NCBI RefSeq assembly: GCF_040892545.1
Contig: NZ_CP156079.1
Coordinates: forward strand, 1,771,501-1,835,500
Source: Paracidovorax avenae
GTDB taxonomy: Bacteria > Pseudomonadota > Gammaproteobacteria > Burkholderiales > Burkholderiaceae_C
DNA length: 64,000 nt
Reading direction: 5' to 3'
The position numbers and the translations under genes were made by a program. Of the stretch, positions 3,187-35,874 are shown one piece after another. The notes below the pieces were generated by a model. It did not search any database and was not told where the DNA came from. It saw only the letters and a program-made list of their open reading frames with translations. The stretch's first letter is position 1. Each line of letters begins with the position of its first letter.

Positions 3187-3250
3187 GCACGGATTGTAGG
3201 GTTGGGGCCGGACGGGGGAATATGTATCGAAACGTCCTAGAATCCGCTGC

Positions 3251-3482
3251 GTTGGTGCCAGCGGCCTGGTTCACAGGCCGCGGTTCAACGGGAAGCAGGG
3301 AGGCGCCGTCCGCCACGGACGCGCCGTGCCTGCGCTGCCCCCGCAACGGTCCGTGGAAGAAAGCTGCCCGCCCCTTCCGGCGCAGCGGCTTTCGCCGCCT
3401 CCTGCACAAAGCCACTGGGTGCCTTGAACAAGCGCCTGGGAAGGCGCAGGAGCGTGTCGTCCACCAGCCCGGATACCGGCCA
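3251..3482 (+). promoter_or_regulatory. Cobalamin (adenosylcobalamin) riboswitch
   Basis: The RNA shows the conserved blocks of the cobalamin family in order: GGTGCC near 3254, CAACGGGAAGC near 3286, the strongly conserved GCTGCCCCCGCAACGGT at 3334-3350, the B12 box region AGCCACTGGG around 3410-3419 with CTGGGAAGGCGC at 3436-3447, and the closing CCCGGATACCGGCC near 3468-3481. It precedes btuB, the classic target. Binding of the coenzyme is expected to lower expression of btuB and probably of the whole downstream B12 operon. Confidence 0.95.
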
Positions 3483-3490
3483 ACACGGAG

Positions 3491-3524
3491 GCCGCGCCTC
3501 CCGGTGAACTGCCGGGAGCGCGGC
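3491..3524 (+). promoter_or_regulatory. Hairpin of the riboswitch expression platform
   Basis: Immediately after the aptamer, arms GCCGCGCCTCCCGG (3491-3504) and CCGGGAGCGCGGC (3512-3524) form a 13-pair stem with one bulged base and a seven-base loop. No U-run follows, so a standard intrinsic terminator is unlikely. Control of translation or Rho access is more plausible, but that is inference. The btuB start lies about 60 bases downstream. Confidence 0.6.
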
Positions 3525-30768: not shown

Positions 30769-33741
30769 TCAGTGTGTCCGGCGGCGCCGTGGCACTGCTC
30801 CGAACGCGAAGGCCGCGACCAGCCCGCTCAGCGCCAGCAGGCCCCATTCGGACAACGTGGGAATGGGGGCCGCGTCCGCCGACAGCACGGCAGGGCCGCC
30901 CGGATCGACGATGACGCTGTTCGGGCTCAGATCGTCGTCGCCCACGGCTCCGTCGGCGATCGTCAGCGTGATGCTCTTGCGGTCCTGCGAAAACGCCACC
31001 TGGCTGGAAGGCAACTGGTACCAGTGGTCGGCGGCGCAGGCGGCTCCGGAGCAGTTGTAGCCCTCCGGGCTCTTTCCGTATTTCATGTACACCGCGCCGG
31101 CCGGGATGGCCGAGGTGTAGTTGATGGTCACGCTCGCGGACGAGCCGGGGGTGCCGCTGGTCAGCGTGAAGTTGGCCAGGCCGTAAGGCAGGCTGGTCCG
31201 GGCGGGTGGAGGTGCCGACGGGCTGGAGAAGCCCGCGCTGGCGAGAACCCAGTTGTTGTTGTCACCAGGGGCCGGCGTGGACAAGGCCCCTTGGCTTTGC
31301 CCGGTGGCGGTATTGCTCCAGGGAGCCGTGCAGGAGGCATTGTTTCCACCCTGGGTGCCGGCGCATGTCCAGGCATACTGGTTCGCCCCGGTGGTCACGG
31401 TGGAAGCATTGCCCGCCGTGCACAGGTTGGCGGCTGGCCGGAGGCTGGCGGGGGCGTTGGCTGCGGATCCACAGGCGCCATCGACGGGAGCGGGAACCAC
31501 GAGGCTGGACGGGCTCGAACACACCTCGGCCCCCGTGCCGGTACCGGTCAGGGCCACCGGCACCACGCAGAAGTACAGGTACTTTCCTTCGTCGCTGCTG
31601 CCAAGGGTGTAGTTTTGCGTGCTGGCGGCATTGGTGCCGCCGGTGATGCCGGTGTTCACGCTGTTGCGTACCCAGCGGTAGGTGGATGTGCCCTGCGCGT
31701 CCTGGTCCGCGTCGGTATAGGTGTAGGTGCCGGATAGCTGACGGCCCACTTGCGCCGTGCCTGTGAACGACACGTTGCTGGCGACCGGCGCGGCATTCGC
31801 CAGGACGGTGATCGTGAAAGCCTTGTAGCCGATGTTGCCTGCCACATCCGTCGCAGACAGGTAGACATGGTACGAGCCGGCCGAGAGGGCCGCCGCCCCC
31901 ACCTTCAATGTGCTGCCGCTGATCGTGAACCGGCTATTGTCGGCATCGTTCGTTCCGTTTCCCACAGCCAGTGCAAAACTCACGCTGTAAGAGTCGGAGG
32001 CGCTCAACGTACCGATCGTCGCACTCTGCGTGGCGGCACTGACGAAGATGGTCGTGGGCGACAGCCCCACGCCGGAGGGAGCGGTGGTGTCCACGGTATA
32101 GGAGACGGGCGTCGAGGCCACCGATACATTCCCGGCGGCATCCCGCTGCCTGGCCCTCAGGGTGTGGGTGCCATCGGCCAGCGTGCTGCTGGTGATGCTC
32201 CAGCTGCCGGTGGTCGCGTTGGCAACCGCCGTGCCGAGCAGGGTGATGCCATCGGTGTCGTACAGCGACACCGTGGCACCCGGTTCGGCGCTGCCCGTGA
32301 TGACCGGCGTGGCGACATTGCTGATCCCGTCGCTGGCGGAGGCGCCGCTGTCGCTGCCCGAAGTGACACCCAGCGACGTGGGAGCCGCGGGTGCCGTCGT
32401 GTCGATCTTGACCGTCAGCCCGCTGCTCAGGGGAGATGTCGCGTTCGATCCATCGGTTTGCGTGACTTTGAGCGTATGCGAACCATCCGCCAGCACGCTG
32501 CTCGTGATGCTCCAGTTGCCGCTGGAATTGGCGATCGCCGTGCCCAGCAGCGTGGTTCCATCGGTGTCGTACAGCTTGACCGTGGCATTGGCCTGGGCCG
32601 TTCCGGAGATGGTCGGCGTATTGACGGAGGTGATGCCGTCGCCTGCCTGTCCCGTATCGCTCGCGCTGTCCAACGTCGGGGCGGCAGGTGCGGAGGGCCC
32701 GGGGCGCGTGATGGAAACGATGATCGAGTGGCTCATGCTTGACGCATCGGTTCCATCCGTCCCTTGCAGCGCGTTGGTATCGTTGCCCGCCGTCGGATCG
32801 GTGTAGACGAAATCGATGATGTCTCCCGGAAGCAGGGAGGCGTTAATCGAAATCTTCACGGAATCCGCGCTGTCGCCTGCGGCGACGCCCGTCACGGAGA
32901 CATCGGTTCCATTCACCTGGACATTGAATGCACTGGCAAGCGGCAAATGCGTGGTATCCAGCGCCACGCTCATGACCACGGTGAAGAATTGCTCGCCGAT
33001 GTAGCCCGTGGCGCTCGAATACGAGGGTTGCGGCAGCGTGTGGGAATACCGGGCCAGCTTGTCCAGGTCGAAGGCCGGGGCCGTGGAGAGCGCCGCCGTG
33101 GAAACTTCCAGCGTCCAGTCACCGCCCAGTGCCGCGCTGCCCGTGGTGTTCGTGGAGGCAGCCACGACTGCACCGGTGGCGCGTGCCAGGGCCTCCAGGT
33201 AATCGTGTCCGATCGCGCCTTCGCCGACACTGCAGCCGTACAGCAGGATCCCACCCCCCGGCGCGAGGGCATCGCCGATCTGCGCAAGCTCTTTCCGGTA
33301 TGCGTGCAGATGGCCGGCGTCCAGCTTCGAGCTTCCGAACGAAACCACGCCGCGGTCGCCATGCGAGACGATGGAAATGGACGAAAGCCCGTGGAGCCCG
33401 CGTGCGACCGCCGCCATCTGTGCGACGGCATCTTCGCCGGGCCTGAGCGTGACCACGATGGCGTCGTCGGCAGCGGCATCGGCAATCTGCTGGAAATCCG
33501 GCAAACCGCCATCGATGAAAACCAGCCGGCTGGCCTTCCCATGCGCGCCGGCCGGTTGCCCCTGCGGCAGGCCTACGCCTTGCACCCGTGCCACCGGCCC
33601 TGCCGCGTTTTCTGGAAGATTCGCCATGCCACCGGCGTACGCGCTCACGTGCATTCCCATCGATAACGCGAAGACTGTCGCCAGTGCGCGTGGCCTCTGG
33701 AGGCTGGCATTGCGCGAGGGAAGTGTCAGACTGCTTGGCAT
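30769..33741 (-). CDS. DUF4347 / Ig-like repeat / IPTL-CTERM surface protein
   Basis: 990 residues. A signal-like N-terminus precedes a DUF4347 domain (about 70-220) with His127 in IVSHGD and Cys170 in LLYGCSVG, a pair resembling the dyad of caspase-like folds. Two closely similar Ig-like repeats follow (each with LYDTDG and SITSS..LADG.HTL), then further beta domains. The C-terminus carries PIPTLSEWGLLALSGL, a hydrophobic helix and RRRRTH: the IPTL-CTERM sorting tag handled by an exosortase. Likely an outer-surface or biofilm-matrix protein. No exosortase gene is in the window. Confidence 0.88.
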   Translation of the reverse strand: MPSSLTLPSRNASLQRPRALATVFALSMGMHVSAYAGGMANLPENAAGPVARVQGVGLPQGQPAGAHGKASRLVFIDGGLPDFQQIADAAADDAIVVTLRPGEDAVAQMAAVARGLHGLSSISIVSHGDRGVVSFGSSKLDAGHLHAYRKELAQIGDALAPGGGILLYGCSVGEGAIGHDYLEALARATGAVVAASTNTTGSAALGGDWTLEVSTAALSTAPAFDLDKLARYSHTLPQPSYSSATGYIGEQFFTVVMSVALDTTHLPLASAFNVQVNGTDVSVTGVAAGDSADSVKISINASLLPGDIIDFVYTDPTAGNDTNALQGTDGTDASSMSHSIIVSITRPGPSAPAAPTLDSASDTGQAGDGITSVNTPTISGTAQANATVKLYDTDGTTLLGTAIANSSGNWSITSSVLADGSHTLKVTQTDGSNATSPLSSGLTVKIDTTAPAAPTSLGVTSGSDSGASASDGISNVATPVITGSAEPGATVSLYDTDGITLLGTAVANATTGSWSITSSTLADGTHTLRARQRDAAGNVSVASTPVSYTVDTTAPSGVGLSPTTIFVSAATQSATIGTLSASDSYSVSFALAVGNGTNDADNSRFTISGSTLKVGAAALSAGSYHVYLSATDVAGNIGYKAFTITVLANAAPVASNVSFTGTAQVGRQLSGTYTYTDADQDAQGTSTYRWVRNSVNTGITGGTNAASTQNYTLGSSDEGKYLYFCVVPVALTGTGTGAEVCSSPSSLVVPAPVDGACGSAANAPASLRPAANLCTAGNASTVTTGANQYAWTCAGTQGGNNASCTAPWSNTATGQSQGALSTPAPGDNNNWVLASAGFSSPSAPPPARTSLPYGLANFTLTSGTPGSSASVTINYTSAIPAGAVYMKYGKSPEGYNCSGAACAADHWYQLPSSQVAFSQDRKSITLTIADGAVGDDDLSPNSVIVDPGGPAVLSADAAPIPTLSEWGLLALSGLVAAFAFGAVPRRRRTH

Positions 33742-33912: not shown

Positions 33913-34887
33913 GTTTCAACCCACGCGCCCACGCGGGGCGCGACGTGCTCATCGGCGCGACGGGCCAGTGGCTGTTCCGGTTTCAACCCACGCACCCGCG
34001 CAGGGCGCGACCCGCAGCCGCCTCAGGTTTTGCAGTGTGGTGCTCATGTTTCAACCCACGCGCCCGCGCAGGGCGCGACCATCCCGGTGATGCAGCCGTG
34101 CTCCGTGGACGGTGTTTCAACCCACGCGCCCGCGCAGGGCGCGACGGTGTCATTGCCGGCAAAACTTGGAGTTACGTTCCCGGTTTCAATCCACGCGCCC
34201 GCGCAGGGCGCGACGCGCCCTAGACTCCCTAATCCACATAGCACGCACATGTTTCAATCCACGCGCCCGCGCAGGGCGCGACTGGTATCGACCGGCCGCG
34301 CTGCTGGAGGTGTTGCGGTTTCAATCCACGCGCCCGCGCAGGGCGCGACCCGCGGCGGCATCGCCGGGCACCTCCGACCATGGGGCGTTTCAATCCACGC
34401 GCCCGCGCAGGGCGCGACTGTTGGTCGTGTCGCTGACGTGGCTGGCGTAGGTGCCGTTTCAATCCACGCGCCCGCGCAGGGCGCGACACCTTCCGGTACT
34501 ATGACCCGGACCTCGGGGCTTGTTTCAATCCACGCGCCCGCGCAGGGCGCGACGCAACCGTGATTGGTCGCGCATGGGCTTTGCCGCGTTTCAATCCACG
34601 CGCCCGCGCAGGGCGCGACGTGGCGAGCGCCTGCCAGGAACCGAGCTGCAGGTGTTTCAATCCACGCGCCCGCGCAGGGCGCGACCCAATGCTTTCCAAT
34701 AGGACCAATCTCCGGCCGGCGTTTCAATCCACGCGCCCGCGCAGGGCGCGACGATAGCAAGCCCGACGATGGCCCAGACGTACGCCATGTTTCAATCCAC
34801 GCGCCCGCGCAGGGCGCGACTTGCGCATCGGGGACAACGCGGGCCGCCCCGGCGCGTTTCAATCCACGCGCCCGCGCAGGGCGCGAC
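33913..34887 (-). CRISPR. CRISPR array, type I-C style repeat, 15 repeats / 14 spacers
   Basis: Fifteen 32-base repeats start at 33913, 33980, 34048, 34114, 34183, 34251, 34318, 34387, 34456, 34522, 34588, 34654, 34721, 34789 and 34856. Spacers are 34-37 bases. On the plus strand the repeat begins GTTTCAATCC and ends GGGCGCGAC; on the minus strand it folds as a CGCGCCC/GGGCGCG stem followed by TGGATTGAAAC, the type I-C pattern. Repeats 5-15 are identical. Repeats 1-4 carry C for T at base 8, and repeats 1 and 2 have further changes, so the left end is the old trailer and transcription runs leftward. No cas gene is in the window. Confidence 0.97.
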
Positions 34888-35109
34888 GGCACCTTTATAA
34901 ACCCGCGCCACCCCATCCATTTTCCCCGCACATCCGCGAACCTGCCCCCATCGACCCGCAACATGCGCGCTCCGTCCGGCACTGAGGAAAAACGCCCTTT
35001 CCCCTCAATCACTTGCACCTGCGCGAACCCCGGGAGTACAAGCCGGTCACTCGCGGTTCGCAACGCCCGGCAAAAAGAAGGAAGGACAGAGAGGAAGCAG
35101 GGCCCGGCC
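34888..35109 (-). promoter_or_regulatory. Putative CRISPR leader
   Basis: 222 noncoding bases between the conserved end of the array and the end of nth. Read on the minus strand it holds TTTATAAA (34894-34901) six bases from the first repeat, and A/T-richer patches further up. Position at the uniform end of the array is the main evidence. Cas genes, expected near many leaders, are absent; nth follows instead. Confidence 0.6.
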
Positions 35110-35748
35110 TCAGGGCGCCGGCGTCTTCGGCTGGTAATCGCACCACGGCGCCACCACGCATTCCCAGCAGCGTGGCTTTCGCGCCTGGCAGACGTAGCGG
35201 CCCAGCAGGATGAGCCAGTGGTGCGAATCGACGGCATATTCGGCGGGCACGCGTTGCAGCAACTGCATTTCCACGGCCAGCGGGTTCTTGCCGGGGGCGA
35301 GGCCCGTGCGGTTGCTCACGCGGAAGATGTGCGTGTCCACCGCCATGGTGGGCTGGCCGAAGGCCACGTTCAGCACCACGTTGGCGGTCTTGCGGCCCAC
35401 GCCGGGCAGTGCTTCCAGTTCCTCGCGCGTGCGCGGCACGGTGCCGCCGTGGCGCTCCACCAGGATGCGGCAGGTCTCCATCAGGTGGCGGGCCTTGCTG
35501 CGGTACAGGCCGATGGTCTTGATGTAGCCCTCCAGCCCTTCCAGCCCCAGGTCGAGGATGGCCTGCGGCGTGCCCGCCACCGGGAACAGCTTGCGCGTGG
35601 CCTTGTTCACGCCCACGTCGGTGGCCTGGGCCGACAGCAGCACGGCGGCCAGCAGTTCGAAGACGGTGGTGTACTCCAGCTCGGTGTTGGGCTGGGGGTT
35701 GGCGGCCTTCAGCGCGGCGAAGAAGGGTTCGATCTGCGCGGTTTTCAT
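35110..35748 (-). CDS. nth: Endonuclease III (base-excision DNA glycosylase/AP lyase)
   Basis: 212 residues, normal family length. Removes oxidised pyrimidines and nicks the abasic site. Helix-hairpin-helix LPGVGRKTANVVL with the catalytic Lys, catalytic Asp in AVDTHIFRVSNR, and the C-terminal [4Fe-4S] cysteines in CQARKPRCWECVVAPWC. It is on the same strand as the CRISPR array, whose leader starts right after it, so readthrough into the array is possible. Confidence 0.96.
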   Translation of the reverse strand: MKTAQIEPFFAALKAANPQPNTELEYTTVFELLAAVLLSAQATDVGVNKATRKLFPVAGTPQAILDLGLEGLEGYIKTIGLYRSKARHLMETCRILVERHGGTVPRTREELEALPGVGRKTANVVLNVAFGQPTMAVDTHIFRVSNRTGLAPGKNPLAVEMQLLQRVPAEYAVDSHHWLILLGRYVCQARKPRCWECVVAPWCDYQPKTPAP

Positions 35749-35874
35749 GGTGGTGTGGGGCGTCTTTGTCGATGCGGTTCGCCCGTGGATTGTCCCGCAG
35801 CGCACCGCACGCATGAAACATGCGCGGCCATTGGCGACAATGGGGGTCTTTCGCCAACACACCGTGAACACGCC

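Follow-up and report, generated by a model that had tools for sequence, protein, structure and literature searches.

The closest relatives of the CRISPR array considered here are the type I-C arrays of Acidovorax and Paracidovorax, with 32-nt repeats, spacers of 34-37 nt, a Cas8c/Csd1 operon that includes Cas4, a TTC/TTN protospacer-adjacent motif (PAM) and spacers that match prophages; a table in PMC8482600 gives TTN as the PAM of Acidovorax type I-C. The array in our window (the whole stretch of 64,000 nucleotides of Paracidovorax avenae DNA that was analysed) belongs to a system that is alike in these respects. Unlike those arrays, it is separated from the cas genes and sits at an nth-like locus, and one of its spacers, W6, matches a chromosomal rhs gene without a PAM. 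Spacers that match the chromosome of their own host are known: the review PMC6990116 mentions spacers with no apparent PAM, a type I-F case in Pectobacterium atrosepticum with a mutated PAM and, by citation, the survey of self-matching spacers by Stern et al. 2010. As described there, such non-effective spacers resemble W6 in that they are natural, have a match on the chromosome of the host and are tolerated without a working PAM; unlike them, W6 matches its own genome imperfectly (30/34), and three of the four differences are synonymous, so that its donor would have been a different allele, probably of kin or of an ancestor. The matched gene resembles VgrG-linked PAAR-Rhs effectors, which are polymorphic toxins, and has PAAR, DUF6531, RHS repeats and an RHS core; it stands outside the CRISPR system and is a relative of the presumed source of W6. 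In archaeal inter-species mating, spacers are reportedly taken from the chromosomes of related species; W6 would be alike as a CRISPR memory of kin chromosomal DNA, and differs in being single and bacterial.

The array occupies positions 33913..34887 on the minus strand; in it, 15 repeats, each 32 nt long, alternate with 14 spacers of 34-37 nt. W6 (34488..34521, minus strand, 34 nt, crRNA sense AAGCCCCGAGGTCCGGGTCATAGTACCGGAAGGT) lies between the ninth and tenth repeats from the left (34456..34487 and 34522..34553, minus strand), both of which have the consensus sequence. On the plus strand, frame 1, the spacer reads TFRYYDPDLGA; the preliminary description had both the place and the translation (TFRYYDPDLG) right. 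The leader (34888..35100, minus strand, outer border approximate) lies to the right of the last repeat, which makes the minus strand the one from which the array is read, and W6 the sixth spacer from the leader. It follows that the crRNA would be complementary to the coding strand of rhs, as had been proposed. In the RNA sense the repeat is GTCGCGCCCTGCGCGGGCGCGTGGATTGAAAC; it forms a 7-bp hairpin of -14.6 kcal/mol, an energy that is unexceptional against shuffled sequences (z only -1.30). With its length of 32 nt, the hairpin, the GAAAC end and a leader upstream, the repeat is of type I-C. The leader-distal repeat (33913..33944, minus strand) differs from the other 14 and has exactly the repeat sequence of the main array, which lies next to the cas operon; the newer repeats have a different common sequence, which is likely a record of repeat drift in the satellite array.

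To the right of the leader is an nth-like gene of the endonuclease III family (35110..35750, minus strand; Pfam HhH-GPD and EndIII_4Fe-2S), which marks a conserved chromosomal site of the array. A type I-C-like array locus beside this gene (33913-35750 in the window) is kept in five congeners (L038, L040, L042, L045, L047). The nth-like DNA of these loci is 89-97% identical, and the leader is 84-90% identical in three congeners and 70% identical, over part of its length, in a fourth. The size of the array at this site varies greatly, from 3 repeats in G001 to 96 in G009. Left of the array, on the minus strand (30769-33741), the window encodes a 990-aa protein with DUF4347, bacterial Ig-like domains and an IPTL-CTERM sorting motif, which is likely a surface or secreted protein; a cobalamin riboswitch (Rfam RF00174, 49.2 bits) lies on the plus strand at 3236-3498.

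No Cas family was found in the 10 reading frames that neighbour the window array (2 compared with Pfam and 8 with NCBIfam; some of these frames are mechanical and unproven as genes). Genome-wide there are only two Cas1 matches, at 4.62 and 5.55 Mb. The first belongs to a type I-C operon at 4.61-4.62 Mb, 2.8 Mb from the window array, which is followed by the main array of 52 repeats. By family match its gene content is that of type I-C: Cas5c, Cas8c/Csd1, Cas7/Csd2, Cas4, Cas1c and Cas2 score over the NCBIfam cut-off, and Cas3 is recognised by its Pfam HD, DEAD and Cas3 C-terminal domains. The leaders of the two arrays align: they have CAAGTGATTGA in common, and the end of the window leader, GGCGCG...TTATAAAG..GCC, also ends the leader of the main array. 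Spacer W11 of the window (34146-34182) and M1, the spacer nearest the leader in the main array (G000:C1:4620183-4620217), have the same first 31 nt and then diverge. Judged by this agreement, they are evidently one protospacer, or two variants of the same protospacer, captured in both arrays, which fits one adaptation machinery for both. We consider the window array to be an ordinary type I-C satellite array that has its own leader and depends on a cas operon at another place on the chromosome.

The genome also has a type I-F system, with a Cas1-like protein and a fused Cas2-Cas3 (G000:C1:5547238-5551739; L020:9239-13740). In the main array one 36-nt spacer is present twice, ten units apart (M28 and M38). 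On the minus strand, a frame at G000:C1:4610002-4611420 (L019:3-1421) resembles, by eye, the N-terminal part of the rhs gene at 4606687-4606920, with a PAAR-like start; it points away from the type I-C operon and starts about 0.3 kb from the cas3 frame.

What does W6 match? The preliminary description held that the spacer encodes the Rhs core motif and that rhs genes are usually chromosomal and multi-copy, and both points are borne out here. Rhs core domains (TIGR03696) occur 12 times in the genome. When the 3.2-kb loci around them were compared with W6, the best match, in frame in one core, was identical at 30 of 34 bases; two other cores had 7 mismatches and the remaining nine had 11-15. This match, the best for W6 in its own genome outside the array, is thus homologous but non-identical. 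The gene in question encodes 1595 aa and stands behind frames with VgrG and DcrB domains. The DNA that matches W6 ends about 145 codons before the end of the gene, near the border of the core and the variable tip. In congeners the matches are of the same order: 31/34 in P. anthurii, whose rhs gene is 82% identical to the own gene over 1523 aligned positions, 30/34 in two copies of G002 and one copy of G009, and 29/34 in P. oryzae. As a side observation, G002 has, at G002:C1:2117270-2120120 (L080, L090), one rhs frame of full length and, after it, a 400-aa frame in which the core is repeated and the W6 site is unchanged; the latter looks like an orphan rhs tip.

Short motifs like YDPDLGA do occur in unrelated proteins, and one could argue that W6 resembles rhs by coincidence, or that it derives from an unrelated gene with a similar peptide. 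The pattern of differences refutes this, and we give the idea practically no credence. The similarity is at the DNA level (30-31/34), in frame and with a strong third-position bias: among 11 hand-picked G-A-F-type sites (leaving aside a second copy in G002, which has an identical site, as well as the EVGAF sites of G012), third codon positions take 55 of the 63 mismatches to W6. Counted by position, 10 of the 14 variable positions are third codon positions, of which 11 are available among the 34 (P about 7e-5, a rough value since the sites are related). Variation of this codon-like kind indicates that the donor was coding rhs and speaks strongly against a chance peptide. The chance expectation of a match with no more than 4 mismatches on both strands of the genome is 1.5e-7 at equal base frequencies, a figure that the G+C-rich composition raises somewhat, and the reversed pattern gave 0 matches in 17 genus genomes and 0 in 399 family genomes. 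These comparisons show that W6 is homologous to rhs, and its origin from rhs is well supported; the donor would have been a coding rhs allele of what may be called the "LGAF" lineage.

The donor itself was sought at several levels. An exact (34/34) match is absent from 17 genus genomes, which represent each species by one genome. It is likewise absent from 399 family genomes, a draw with 6 genus genomes, the own one included, in which the array itself is the only match. At no more than 3 mismatches, the own genome contains only the array, the 17 genus genomes contain one rhs gene besides it, that of P. anthurii, and no other array of these genomes contains W6. A degenerate scan of genome contigs recovered P. 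anthurii and P. oryzae; its pattern took only G or C as the third base of Ala, and it is a weaker scan in that alleles with GCT, as in W6, are missed. The check that had been proposed for the preliminary description, a match to rhs at 30 or more bases in this or related genomes, with an rhs gene and not an unrelated phage gene as the best match, has come out positive.

The same description allowed for a mobile element that carries rhs as the target. Relatives of the LGAF core do occur in plasmid and viral sequences: at 73-77% DNA identity in 14 plasmid records, at 73.6% in one unannotated 7-kb phage record, and on two viral contigs. Those on the viral contigs differ from W6 by 10 bases. W6 has no match in the plasmid collection, and its phage matches are weak (17-23 bases, E of 1 or worse). 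Viral contigs gave 0 matches for the degenerate pattern FRYYD-[PAST]-D-[LF]-GAF, for a 23-mer of W6 and for a degenerate minus-strand pattern. A scan of the viral contigs for a TTN flank together with YDPDLGA returned only two copies of an unrelated protein, with 22 of 34 bases mismatched to W6. Overall, the option of a mobile element has little support.

Whether W6 can act on any rhs gene depends on the PAM of the system. Seven genus genomes, with 14 array loci between them, gave 407 spacers (404 distinct); the set is without the arrays of G013, G014 and G016 and without the one or two repeats that G004, G005, G010 and G011 each have. These spacers were compared, with arrays masked, to a set of loci, mainly 24 stretches around twelve terminase matches and hence biased towards prophages (two of the twelve are below the family cut-off, and overlapping loci may count twice). 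At no more than 8 mismatches there were 147 matches versus 3 for reversed spacers, the latter all at 7-8 mismatches, which is one more point against coincidence as the explanation of W6. With W6 and its 9 matches excluded throughout, the spacers whose best match has no more than 2 mismatches show TTC in 17/25 and TTN in 21/25 cases; at no more than 4 mismatches (40 spacers) the counts are 24/40 and 29/40, and at no more than 8 they are 36/70 and 45/70. It is clear that the genus type I-C system as a whole uses a TTC/TTN PAM. A non-TTN flank is not rare by itself, as 11 of the 40 matches of other spacers to prophages have one; a TGA or TAA flank is present in 0/138 matches of the genus spacers other than W6 at no more than 8 mismatches. 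From the window array only W6 (flank TGA) and W13 (5 mismatches, flank CGC) gave matches at this level, and no TTN-flanked protospacer was found for any window spacer in the loci compared for the PAM.

At the rhs sites the situation is uniform. Among 28 distinct sites with no more than 10 mismatches to W6, two of them on viral contigs, the three bases in the place of the PAM are TGA in 23 and TAA in 5, with TTC and TTN in none; the P. oryzae site, which is too near a contig end to be counted, also has TGA. The more distant rhs cores of the own genome have CAT, CAA or TGT at this place. By eye, none of the best rhs sites has TTC within three bases outside the 5' end of W6. The flipped orientation was considered as a rescue of the PAM and rejected, as it gives AAC at 26/28 and AAT at 2/28 sites. 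The explanation lies in the protein sequence: the place of the PAM is the complement of the end of a Phe codon and the start of the next codon (GAF-T, GRF-I), which yields TGA or TAA. The best rhs sites also have 2 mismatches within the first eight bases of the crRNA, and none of the 28 sites combines an intact seed with a TTN PAM. The expectation of TTC on the correct side of an rhs gene, like the idea of a functional target for the array, is thus not supported by any site found.

It could be said in reply that W6 nevertheless provides effective immunity, having come from an unsampled element or strain in which an rhs-like gene is flanked by a proper TTC/TTN PAM, and that it protects against this element. 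The exact donor is indeed missing from the collections searched, so the flank of the true donor could carry TTC; the plasmid and phage relatives of the LGAF core mentioned above, and the TTC-flanked prophage sites that its machinery's other spacers match, also speak for this reading. On the contrary, the motif that follows the matched site, F-T-T or F-I-S, forbids TTN. A TTC flank would place an in-frame TGA stop right after ...LGA, for which the donor would need a broken or unusual rhs, and TTN in general would force Leu, Ser or a stop after LGA, all absent from the sites here. Taken with the poor matches to plasmids, phages and viral contigs, this makes effective immunity unlikely in our opinion, even if it is the most probable of the alternatives.

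We also considered effects on the host itself, whose own genes were one of the targets that had been suggested. The best own site differs from W6 at crRNA positions 5, 8, 11 and 16, two of them within positions 1-8, and lacks a PAM; its gene should therefore escape cutting, and the own genes as a working target are not supported. An active self-targeting spacer, tolerated through an anti-CRISPR or a dead cas operon, would agree with a 30/34 match in the own genome. However, the cas genes look present by family match, and a site with four mismatches and without a PAM needs no such protection; we regard this possibility as very remote.

A regulatory role would be another way for W6 to be of use at home: the crRNA has the antisense direction and, with 30/34 complementarity, might bind the own rhs gene or its mRNA without cutting and lower its expression. 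The missing PAM and the same four mismatches count against this, as does the fact that type I-C effectors act on DNA. Further, a useful regulatory spacer might be expected to recur, and W6 is the only one of the 407 spacers with an Rhs core motif (by a list of Rhs core/YD motifs in six frames, a search that other parts of rhs could escape), so that nothing points to selection; its absence at no more than 3 mismatches from the other genus arrays of the 17 genomes argues in the same direction. In sum, we find host regulation quite improbable.

Nor does this count suggest that spacers are regularly directed at rhs in the genus. When the 404 distinct spacers were compared by DNA with the rhs loci (those added later were compared with W6 alone), only M19 matched besides W6, in P. 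anthurii (6 mismatches, L022:6438); as a second match in the neighbourhood of rhs it had to be rejected, since it lies outside the rhs frame and has a CTC flank. As to other spacers, the protospacer of W11 and M1 was not found in viral contigs or phages, and in the 17 genus genomes the sequence occurs only in the two arrays. The spacer M28/M38 has no phage match and the main-array spacer M6 no viral match. Literature searches on CRISPR spacers with rhs or the rearrangement hotspot, and on CRISPR in the genus, judged mostly by titles and short entries, returned no account of an rhs-derived spacer; PMC10810201 has 0 occurrences of Rhs, and PMC12961662 has 0 of Rhs or spacer.

Based on all of this, we think it probable that W6 is a by-catch spacer, taken without a PAM from the rhs DNA of kin or of an ancestor, and kept as it is harmless. 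According to this explanation, the source of W6 was the core of a PAAR-Rhs gene in Paracidovorax, linked to VgrG and belonging to the lineage with the reading HYNTFRYYDPDLGAFTTPDP. The present own allele would not be the donor, for three of the four differences are synonymous and a spacer would not gather such changes by itself. The donor DNA may have come into the cell from a related strain, or it may have been an allele that the host itself once had and has since replaced. The adaptation machinery would have taken it at a non-canonical site, one that has no TTC PAM, and inserted it into the satellite array. The resulting crRNA would not direct Cascade-Cas3 to cut the rhs gene of the host or the related rhs genes seen here, and interference against the host or known kin rhs is not expected. 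W6 would then be retained for the simple reason that it does no harm.

A bolder story can be told, in which W6 is an immune memory of interbacterial competition: DNA taken up from a killed or mating Paracidovorax rival would have yielded a guide against the invariant Rhs core just upstream of the variable toxin tip, and such a guide would recognise every toxin variant of the lineage. In order to act, the guide would depend on an unsampled TTC-flanked allele or on a relaxed reading of the PAM, and we believe the proposal to be improbable. A PAM-less by-catch spacer from kin or ancestral rhs remains our preferred account, and W6 probably serves as a silent memory, not as an active weapon.

On present evidence W6 is a harmless curiosity, and a well-documented example of a spacer that has no PAM and derives from a competition gene on the chromosome. 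Where spacers match chromosomal genes, whether of the host or of its kin, they record the DNA, besides that of phages, which the adaptation machinery has seen, and W6 points to a competition gene of the chromosome as one such source. That the PAM is missing suggests a reason why a spacer of this kind can survive in a genome that still carries rhs. A donor with a flanking PAM, if one came to light, would suggest a CRISPR memory directed at the weapon gene of a rival.
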